From Phoenix dactylifera (taxonomy: Eukaryota; Streptophyta; Magnoliopsida; Arecales; Arecaceae): DNA of 64,000 nt. Numbering within the stretch: position 1 is the first letter of the stretch; every line of letters begins with the position of its first letter. The DNA is taken from NCBI RefSeq assembly GCF_009389715.1, contig NC_052394.1:21516899-21580898 (forward strand), written 5' to 3'. The translations under genes and the position numbers were made by a program. Of this stretch, positions 24,655 to 27,964 are shown piece after piece. The notes beneath the pieces were generated by a model that did no database searches, was not told the DNA's origin, and saw only the letters and a list, made by a program, of their open reading frames with translations.

Positions 24655-27600
24655 CTAAGATCTAGGTTTCTCCTTCTTCTCCTTGAAGAGAGCCAACAGA
24701 GACACACCTGAGACCTTAACAACCTTAAACCTGACTCCAGGAATATCTCCAACTGCATGCCCCTTACGACCAAATCCTGCAATGAGCACTTCATCCTGCA
24801 CACAGAATCAATACATTTGTCAACGGTCAAAGAACACATAAGACAGCTCATCACAATTTGAACTAGAACCTTAGAGATAGAGATAGAGAGGGAGAGAGAG
24901 AAGAAAACTTGCATTTTCCTCAATGTAATTTAAGCAACCATCATTGGGGACAAAGGCAGCAATCTTCTTCCCATTTTTAATCAACTGAACTCGAGCACAC
25001 TTCCGGATGGCAGAATTTGGCTGCTTCGCCTCAATGCCTCTGCAGATAAAGCAGTGAGTTATGTGATAAACCATGATTTCAGAAGAAAGGAATGTGAAGG
25101 CATGTGAATTTTGCTCACATTTTCTCCAAAACAATCCCTTTGGCATGAGAAGAGCCAGCAAAAGGCTTCTTCCATTCATTACCAAGGTGACTTTTCTTAT
25201 ATGCTTTGTCAGCCCACCTCTGGTTCCTTCTGTGGGTCTTCAGCTTACGGGCAGCTCCCATACCACGAGTCTTCCTGCCATAAGGTTTTAAAGATTGTTA
25301 ACATTCTATCAATATAGCATTAGGCACATGGCACCTTTTCCTTTCTAGCATAGCGCAGGACCTAATTTGTTGTAAGACTATGTACACAAGGTAATCTTCA
25401 CTGTCTTCACCTTCATATACAAACAGATACCCCTCTGTAAGAAAATCAGCAACATCCATGTGCTATTTTTCAGCCACACAGCAACGGTGCCATATAGAAC
25501 ACAGTCCCTACACCAAGCCATCTTAGAAACAAATCTATCTATTTGAAGGGTACACTTGTGAGTTGATGCATACTCTTTTTGCCAGTATCCATGAGTAATC
25601 TTGGAGTTATTGGCCTTTCTGGAGCATTACTTTGCTAGAGTCAGCAACACTCTTATTCTGACATTAGTAAGCCCTATATTACATCACATTTCCTATTAAA
25701 GGCTTCACCTTGGGTCGACACATGAATGTGAACATATCAATGATTTCTTGACTTATGTTCAGGGCTGAGCCCCACCACATGAATGTTGCACTATCTAGAA
25801 TTTTTTAATTAAAAAAAAATATAGAAAGCGGGTGAATGGACGAGCTTCCGAGGAGATTCGGAAGTGGATGAGCGACCCTGAATTGAAGATTCGCTCATAA
25901 TACATCGAGGAGAATGAAACAAGAAGATAACAGTACCTTGCAAATCACTTGACAAGAGGATAAGGATAAAAAGAACTTAAAGAATCATAAACAACATGAT
26001 CTTTTAATTAGGATTTTTAAACCCAAAATGTAGGACACCAAGTTTATCTGCCTTTGAATTGAAAATTTCAAGAGGCTTCCAAATACATGGTGCCAACATG
26101 TCCTTCATGATAATGTAAGTGTCAATGTCTCTCATTCAAATCAGCGCAAGATCATCAACAAGCATATTCATGAATTCGAGAAAGGTATTGGTGGATGAGG
26201 GGATGAGAGTTTGATCGAGATCTTCAGCTTTTTCACCTCCTTTAGAAATAATAATCACACTCATTGTATATGTACAATAATTTCCTAAAGTCCCCTGATC
26301 AAGAAGCTGGATTGAGTCTCACCATCTGAAGATTGCAATTTCCAGTAAAGATAATCCTTTTTTATTTGTGCAAATAATTAAAATTAATTCAAAATCCAAG
26401 GAAACTAAAAGAGAAAGCAAGGAACATCTTCTAAAGTCCTCAGCAGAAAGATAAGGAGAGAGAGACAAATTAAGGAAACCATGAACCACAAACTCTGAAA
26501 GTGGACTTAAAAAAAAATAAAGACTTCTAAACTTCTAGCATGTATACCACCAAATATGCCTTTGATACAATTGAATAATCTGAAGAAAGGACTTCAATAC
26601 ATGGTGGCAAATGGTACTTTAGCTTATGATAATGTTAAGTGCTGAAAGGTCAAGTTCTGATCAGCACTAGACCGTCAATAAGCACACTTAGGTGGGGTGA
26701 GAGTGTTTTGTAGATTAATTTCTTTTAAAAACATATTCACTATATGTTTGCAACAATTTTCAGAATTTTCGTCCACTAGCAACCTGGGTTTGCCCCCGGT
26801 TTGCCCCCACCTAAAAGAATGCAATTTCTATTAGAGTGGGTCTTTCCATCTGAGAAGCAGAAAATTTTATTTAATTGAGTAAGCATCAAGAAGAAGGGTG
26901 ATCTTTCAAAACCCTTAACAACACAATATAAAGAATAGGATCATTATAAAATCAAAAATAACAAATCATCGTACTGTTAAAATGGGACAAAAGTAGAAAT
27001 AATATACCAACAAGTATATCTCCCCTGAAATTGATATTTTCGAGAAAGGGCTTCAATATACATGATGGCATATGGTTACTTTAGCTTATGATAATGTTAG
27101 GCACTGATGTGTCAAATTCAAATCAGCACCGGACCGTCCATAAGCCTATATACTCAGGAAAGAGACACAAGGATTTCGTCCATATGAACATCATCTCTGC
27201 TTTTAGAGCAAAAAAAAAAAAAACATTTTTAGCAACAAGCCCACTTGGATAAATATAAAGCTGGGTCCAATTCCACCACCAAAGTGTTGCAATTTATCTT
27301 GGAGTTCATCCAGCAGTCCCGCTTATTACTTTAAAAATTACTCATAAAATCAAGAAGAGGTTTTCTATAGCCACTAACAAGAATATAAAGAGACTATGAA
27401 TAAATTACAAAACCATGGCGAGGTATGAACAAGAAAATAAAGTTAAAAAAAGAAAAAGCAGCAAACTTCTGGATGTATACCACCACATATACCCCCAAAA
27501 ATAAATTTTTGAAGGGCTCCTGTAAACATGGTAGCATATGATTATTTTAGCTTATGATAATGTTGAGTGCTGACGGGTGAAAAGTCGAATCAGCACTAGA

Positions 27601-27964
27601 CCGTCAATAAGCATATATATCTTCTTTATAGTTCAACTTCTTTAGGTACAAAAACTATCCTCGAAACTATGAAAAGAACATTTAGAAAAAAATAAATTAC
27701 ATGATCAGTATTAAAGCAGCAATGAAATATAAACAGATTGATGGAAAATATCCTATACTAAGTTTCCAATGCATTGTATGAAGTCGGAACACTTTAATGT
27801 CCCATCAAAATCCTACTAATAATCCGTCGAAAAGATTGATAATATAGCATTAGAATAAAAAGAAATATCTTTAACGCTACAGAGGTTCCAAAAACTTGGG
27901 GAAAACGAAGGAATAGAGCAAGGTGATGGAATAGGTGAAAGGGAACAGAGAACGCTTACCCCAT
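24655..27964 (-). CDS. RPS23: 40S ribosomal protein S23 (uS12)
   Basis: Four coding exons: 27960..27964 (ATGGG only), 25119..25274, 24913..25039 and 24655..24795. They sum to 429 bases, giving the canonical 142 residues. Landmarks are [40 protein letters not shown], the decoding-centre loop [14 protein letters not shown] and the lysine-rich end KEKKEKPRS. uS12 lines the small-subunit decoding centre and helps maintain translational accuracy; the PND loop carries the conserved hydroxylated proline in other eukaryotes. Introns 1 and 2 are GT-AG. Intron 3 starts GC (AAT|GCAAGT) and ends AG; keeping it as GC-AG is the only way to preserve frame and sequence. Intron 1 (25275..27959, 2.7 kb) holds four snoRNA-like units on the same strand. 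Every residue agrees with the family as I recall it, so the gene looks functional. Confidence 0.97.
26026..26164 (-). ncRNA. Degenerate H/ACA snoRNA-like unit, copy A (RPS23 intron 1)
   Basis: Most diverged of the four units. On the minus strand the second hairpin is kept: GGCACCA pairs with UGGUGUC, an inner GCCU pairs with AGGC, and the ACA triplet (26029-26031) lies exactly three bases before the proposed 3' end. The first hairpin is weak, with two mismatches in the upper stem, and I see no good H box. Probably a decayed copy. Confidence 0.33.
26538..26684 (-). ncRNA. Box H/ACA snoRNA-like unit, copy B (RPS23 intron 1)
   Basis: About 147 nt in the sense orientation of RPS23. Hairpin I: lower stem GCUUAU/AUAAGC, pocket UGACGGUCU on the left and UAACAUUAUC on the right, upper stem AGUGCUGA/UCAGCACU (8 bp), loop of 15. 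Next comes H box AAAGUA (ANANNA, 26615-26620). Hairpin II: UGCCACCA/UGGUGGUA with an inner CCUUU/AAAGG stem. The ACA box (26541-26543) lies three nucleotides from the 3' end. Order, size and box spacing fit eukaryotic H/ACA guides, which direct rRNA pseudouridylation with dyskerin/NOP10/NHP2/GAR1 and are often processed from introns of ribosomal-protein genes. Folding was done by hand; expression is unknown. Confidence 0.6.
26998..27146 (-). ncRNA. Box H/ACA snoRNA-like unit, copy C (RPS23 intron 1)
   Basis: Hairpin I keeps GCUUAU/AUAAGC and the pocket core GACGGUC. Its upper stem is GGUGCUGAU/AUCAGUGCC, fully paired through one A-U to G-C double change and two G-U wobbles relative to copies B and D. 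The H box AAAGUA is present. Hairpin II has AUGCCAUCA/UGUUGGUAU with one U-U mismatch and an inner CCCU/AGGG stem. No exact ACA is found at the expected place (an AUA lies close by), so this copy may be weakened. Confidence 0.48.
27471..27613 (-). ncRNA. Box H/ACA snoRNA-like unit, copy D (RPS23 intron 1)
   Basis: About 143 nt. Hairpin I is nearly identical to copy B (GCUUAU/AUAAGC, pocket UGACGGUCU and CAACAUUAUC, upper stem AGUGCUGA/UCAGCACU) but has a different apical loop. The H box is AAAAUA (27543-27548). Hairpin II: AUGCUACCA/UGGUGGUAU, where one C-G of copy B becomes U-G, with an inner stem in which CCC and AAAAA pair with GGG and UUUUU. ACA (27474-27476) is three bases from the 3' end. 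Loops vary while stems and pocket are kept, the pattern expected of a functional RNA. Confidence 0.6.

Follow-up and report, generated by a model that had tools for sequence, protein, structure and literature searches.

H/ACA snoRNAs encoded in the introns of plant and animal ribosomal-protein genes have two pocketed hairpins, an ANANNA hinge and an ACA three nucleotides from the 3′ end, and they lie in the sense orientation of their host, all of which is shared by the locus described here. In maize, 70% of the host genes of novel intronic non-coding RNAs encode ribosomal proteins (PMC6172812), and another paper deals with the snoRNA clusters of 24 plants (PMC5122169). Tandem snoRNA clusters of rice and maize are made of head-to-tail paralogous copies, as is the array that we found in intron 1 of the ribosomal-protein gene RPS23 in a 64,000-nucleotide stretch of date palm (Phoenix dactylifera) DNA, hereafter the window. 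In contrast to the rice and maize clusters, the palm array belongs to the H/ACA class, with four copies about 465-520 nt apart in this particular intron; unlike the known H/ACA snoRNAs of ribosomal-protein introns, it matches no Rfam family at gathering score, its RNAs are predicted and its target is a candidate. The array, well supported in sequence and putative as RNA, is thus a new example of a well-known kind. Among the titles and abstract openings covered by our literature search, which left most subscription journals outside its coverage, no snoRNA array in an RPS23 intron was described. The array adds a candidate guide-RNA family without an Rfam match in a plant group for which little snoRNA literature turned up.

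Our main reading, to which we give a probability of roughly 0.83, is that the four units are paralogous H/ACA snoRNA genes that arose by old tandem duplication within RPS23 intron 1, and they most likely form an H/ACA family that is specific to this lineage and evolves by birth and death. The earlier note on this DNA had proposed a tandemly expanded intronic H/ACA cluster with two members, B and D, best preserved, and this proposal is supported by the layout, strand and spacing of the units, by the pairing that they have kept and by their slower change relative to the spacers. The covariance search that the note had suggested gave no H/ACA model hit, an outcome that the note had named as counting against its proposal: at gathering score Rfam gave no matches in the window and none at the second RPS23 locus (L009), and up to an E-value of 10 no H/ACA family appeared in the window. 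Since Rfam models are family-specific, this result speaks against a known family and not against the class.

The RPS23 exons of the window contain no stop. Intron 1 of the gene occupies positions 25275-27959 of the minus strand with GT...AG boundaries, exon 1 (ATGGG) ending at 27960 and exon 2 starting at 25274. A repeat search recovered the four-repeat core that had been placed at about 26.1, 26.65, 27.1 and 27.6 kb, as a 39-nt element at 26132, 26652, 27114 and 27581 (spacings of 520, 462 and 467 nt). The units follow one another on the minus strand, which is the sense strand of RPS23, in the order D, C, B, A at intervals of 462-520 nt, in agreement with the host-sense orientation claimed for them. 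Unit D (27471-27613, minus strand) has the full H/ACA layout, with hairpin 1 at 27612-27550, the H box AAAATA at 27548-27543, hairpin 2, and the ACA at 27476-27474; the same layout is found in unit B (26538-26684, minus strand), with hairpin 1 at 26683-26622, the H box AAAGTA at 26620-26615, hairpin 2, and the ACA at 26543-26541. Unit C (27000-27146, minus strand) has both hairpins and the hinge AAAGTA (27082-27077), with AUA at 27005-27003 in place of ACA. Unit A (26026-26164, minus strand) is diverged, its hinge deleted and its hairpin 1 mispaired in the window copy, and carries an ACA at 26031-26029.

Two hairpins with a single-stranded hinge and a short tail are thus present in B, C and D of the window and not in A. 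In B and D a pocketed hairpin is followed by the ANANNA hinge, a second pocketed hairpin and an ACA plus three nucleotides. Hairpin 1 of these two units consists of a GCUUAU/AUAAGC closing stem, a pocket and an upper stem AGUGCUGA(U); the closing stem and the pair AGTGCTGA/TCAGCACT were found in B and D as the note had it, the corresponding pair in C being GGTGCTGAT/ATCAGTGCC. In H/ACA RNAs the internal pocket lies 14-16 nt above the box. In B and D the pocket of hairpin 2 lies 15 nt from the ACA, and in hairpin 1 there are 17 nt from the upper stem to the H box, or 16 if one base is left unpaired. Including copies elsewhere in the genome, an H box of the ANANNA form occurs in all eight B, C and D copies (AAAGTA, AAAATA, AAAGCA, AAAGAA) and in none of the three A copies, and ACA is present in all five B and D copies. 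Of the features that the note gave for B and D, the hinge and the ACA stand; that the ACA lies exactly three bases from the end depends on where that end is placed, the 3′ ends used here being predicted ones. None of the three C copies has an ACA, the window copy having AUA and those on contigs C12 and C26 neither ACA nor AUA; the description of C as partly decayed holds for this box, its hairpins and hinge being kept. Unit A, which the note took to be decayed, is not simply so: in the copy on C26 the upper stem is fully paired through two-sided changes (GGTGTCGAT with ATTGACACT, where B pairs AGTGCTGA with TCAGCACT), although all three copies lack the hinge. Judged by these predicted features, the intact members are B and D; the AUA box makes C marginal, and the hinge is gone from A.

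The unit pattern exceeds chance. We used a descriptor of two pocketed hairpins, ANANNA and ACA with box distances of 13-17 nt, which was designed with B and D already in view; its figures therefore favour these two units and are optimistic. Intron 1 yielded just two matches, D at 31.0 and B at 26.4, both of them on the host-sense strand; across both strands of the window there were nine matches, with D first, B second and the next best at 20.4. Among 3000 dinucleotide shuffles of the intron, 342 had at least one match and 28 at least two, one reached 26.4 and none reached 31. A control of 286,306 bases from 19 palm loci, searched on both strands and containing some N, gave 17 matches, the best of them 22.4, and intron 1 of three other RPS23 copies gave none. 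Unit C was left unmatched by the descriptor with either ACA or AUA; outside the window it matched one copy of seven, D on C12 (23.6), and five matches with ACA lay away from the units in L009 and the C26 locus (L010), at scores of 16.2-21.2. Fold z-scores on the minus strand were -3.69 for D, -4.56 for C, -2.56 for B and -0.51 for A (taken as 26020-26164), with plus-strand values of -2.88, -2.82, -2.13 and -1.17, respectively; the plus-strand fold of A is therefore not the weaker one.

The genome searched comprised 773,078,369 bases in 2391 contigs, the window lying on contig C3. With unit B as a DNA query, eight places were found in the 773 Mb, all eight candidates being scored and all belonging to this RPS23 intron family, on which ground a mobile-element origin was rejected. 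BLAST with fetched flanks brought the total to 11 copies, seven of them outside the window: copies A-D in window order as a syntenic four-unit array at a second RPS23 locus on C12, copies C and A on a fragment on C26 (L010, 3711-4613), and copy D on a fragment on C4 (L011, 3482-3797). No host gene accompanies the two fragments, and the whole-genome protein search gave no RPS23 match on C26 or C4. Both fragments are of the C12 intron type, with identities to C12 of about 85% and 88%, and of 93% in the A unit. A covariance model (R1) trained on six copies found all 11, including five outside its training set; D and B, both training members, scored 149.2 and 154.1 bits, and unit A of the window, which was not in training, scored 64.8 bits (E = 4.5e-11). 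Further RPS23 copies lie on C6, C15 and C11, and their matched exons are free of stops. In the three stretches of 8.0-9.5 kb that carry them, which include intron 1, R1 gave no matches up to an E-value of 10, and outside exon 2 only chance-like alignments of 19-32 bases to the intron were seen. On these two results we rejected the presence of an array in those three copies; the array therefore belongs to a single RPS23 lineage, or the others have lost it.

The second locus shows the array at a different stage of gain and loss in another copy of the same host gene. Upper-stem sequence has been deleted from B on C12, and D on C4 has lost its 5′ arm. On C12 (L009, 1235-1885) the RPS23 coding sequence is degenerate, with many replacements, while unit D keeps all H/ACA boxes. 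In the BLAST alignment this RPS23 has one in-frame stop and lacks codons near the end, its frame not being shifted; it differs from the window gene at 37 nucleotides in 118 compared codons, with a dN/dS of 0.28, which, taken with the stop and the missing codons, suggests that the protein role was probably lost late. Unit D on C12 retains hinge, ACA and guide arm, and this retention may reflect survival for the sake of the RNA, or simply too little time. The degenerate host allows one to ask whether a ribosomal-protein pseudogene persists for its intronic RNA.

Base pairing in the units has been kept, and it bears the mark of the host-sense strand. In the A2 pair counts, based on six of the 11 copies (D of the window and of C12, all three C, and B of the window), 95.5% of 156 cells were paired, versus 26-58% with the partners slid. 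The A1 counts for hairpin 1, on nine of the 11 copies (without D on C4 and B on C12), gave 92.7% of 150 cells versus 24-56%, with three pairs changed on both sides. The column-shuffle controls for covariation were modest or null: the covariation score was reached by 20 of 500 shuffles (A2) and 38 of 500 (A1), while two-sided changed pairs were at least as numerous in 254 and 70 of 500, and further pair types in 498 and 267 of 500. G-U cells outnumbered A-C cells by 23 to 0 in A2, six of the 23 coming from one invariant G-U pair, and by 21 to 4 in A1 (binomial p = 2e-7 and 9e-4, indicative only, as the cells are not independent). Because a G-U pair on the minus strand would be an A-C mismatch on the plus strand, this bias points to selection having seen the minus-strand RNA. 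The sense strand folds more stably in eight of the 11 copies and does not in the other three.

The units have also changed more slowly than the sequence between them. Within the array, the three pairs among B, C and D are identical at 312 of 430 unit positions versus 443 of 910 spacer positions; in the pairs that involve A the units give 81/135, 94/139 and 86/138 and the spacers 114/291, 126/282 and 155/330. Pairwise spacer identity among B, C and D (0.46-0.53) falls in the range of shuffled spacers (0.40-0.52) or just above it. Between the loci on C3 and C12, the units are identical at 463 of 573 positions versus 1299 of 1792 in the rest of the intron (25300-27950), the values per unit being 118/137 for D, 124/147 for C, 117/142 for A and 104/147 for B. 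The loss of the upper stem in the C12 copy leaves unit B, with 36 gapped columns, conserved no better than the intron average. Jukes-Cantor distances between the two loci are 0.15 for D, 0.18 for C, 0.20 for A, 0.34 for the intron and 0.26 for RPS23 synonymous sites.

A competing view is that the array consists of relics, that is, of former H/ACA snoRNA genes that are all or nearly all without function and resemble one another through common origin. Such a state would account for the visibly broken copies (B on C12, D on C4, C on C12 and C26, and all three A) and would suit the C12 RPS23 gene, itself degenerate with an in-frame stop. Against it stand the much smaller change of B, C and D of the window relative to the spacers, the change in D and C between the two loci, which is below that of synonymous sites, and the retention of every box and stem in B and D of the window. 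We therefore hold the relic explanation to be improbable, though it is the strongest of the competing explanations.

Structured intron elements of another kind, such as miRNA-like hairpins, a mobile inverted repeat or splicing structures, might mimic H/ACA RNAs, the core being a hairpin and the best weak Rfam matches being miRNA precursors (MIR390 with 18.2 bits, where the gathering score is 77, and mir-1265 with 17.6, where it is 79). Yet a miRNA requires neither ANANNA nor ACA, two hairpins with hinge, tail and correct pocket distances are specific to H/ACA RNAs, and unit B is not dispersed in the 773 Mb, its eight places all falling in this intron family; an origin of this kind appears very unlikely. 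The readiness of AT-rich introns to fold, along with a fold of unit A no better than shuffles (z = -0.51), could be taken to indicate chance palindromes. That explanation, which we consider scarcely credible, is opposed by the repeat identity, the 11 related copies, the strand-biased G-U pairs and the descriptor results on 3000 shuffles; in the case of B, C and D, the evidence from repeats and paralogues by itself tells against it.

Returning to paralogous H/ACA snoRNA genes as the preferred reading, we infer that the units are transcribed, processed, bound by protein and active as guides. They would be freed from the spliced intron by exonucleolytic trimming, the hinge and ACA would bind the H/ACA core proteins (in box H/ACA snoRNAs, Cbf5, Gar1, Nhp2 and Nop10 on a stable RNA of 120-150 nt), and the hairpin-1 pocket, perhaps with the hairpin-2 pockets, would direct pseudouridylation. 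In unit D the left arm of the hairpin-1 pocket is UUGACGGUCU (27598-27607, minus strand), the same as in unit B at 26678-26669, and the right arm is CAACAUUAUC (27556-27565, minus strand), of which ACAUUAUC, and not AACAUUAUC, is the stretch identical in all 11 copies. The window units B, C and D and the C12 copy of D share the left-arm motif GACGGUC. In D on C4 all that is left of it is CGGUC, and B on C12 has lost it. The arm is altered in the three A copies and likewise in the C copies of C12 and C26, which no longer have GACGGUC and in addition lack both ACA and AUA.

The target scan covered diverged near-full 18S copies, 5.8S, and the 5′ and 3′ parts of palm 25S, supplemented by eukaryote-like LSU sequences in prokaryote bins as 25S stand-ins (L050, L055, L056, L058 and L060, five of 15 fetched). 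Only 25S fragments were found in the assembly, the middle of palm 25S missing, and a search of IMG/VR found nothing. The rDNA in the fetched stretches (C2334, C1409, C1708, C195, C469, C159, C153, C1329) consists of 25S fragments and diverged 18S only. The best site for the hairpin-1 pocket was 25S GAGCUGGGUU-U-AGACCGUCG (GGGUU-U-AGACCGUC), with eight pairs to the left arm and three to the right and a score of 10.4, the next best in palm rRNA scoring 6.4; the site was also best in three of the five stand-ins. In the candidate stretch GGGUUUAGACC the third U is the proposed modified base, which we take to be equivalent to E. coli U2586 and position 4532 of human 28S. In the literature consulted, no known modification at that uridine was confirmed. 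A score of 10.4 was attained by 164 of 2000 and by 167 of 1500 shuffled guides (8-11%), and the best single candidate for a hairpin-2 pocket, that of D on C12, had the same score at an 18S site with 7+4 pairs, so the 25S target is only a lead. The hairpin-2 pockets differ between units and have no target site in common. We accordingly list 25S GAGCUGGGUU-Psi-AGACCGUC, in the peptidyl-transferase region, as a weak candidate target.

A fuller scenario joins these elements: a palm-lineage H/ACA family without an Rfam match, kept in several copies, would guide pseudouridylation in the peptidyl-transferase centre of 25S, at the uridine of GGGUU-U-AGACC, and the degenerate RPS23 on C12 would survive as a host that no longer codes for protein and is left with the release of unit D. 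As a whole we regard this scenario as improbable.

Outside the units, the best-conserved stretch between C3 and C12 lies in the 3′ part of intron 1, at 25430-25560 of the minus strand, where identity rises to 47 of 50. Its end is rich in pyrimidines and bears an ACAG that the window has and C12 lacks; this part of the intron might represent a further structured RNA or else an alternative exon.
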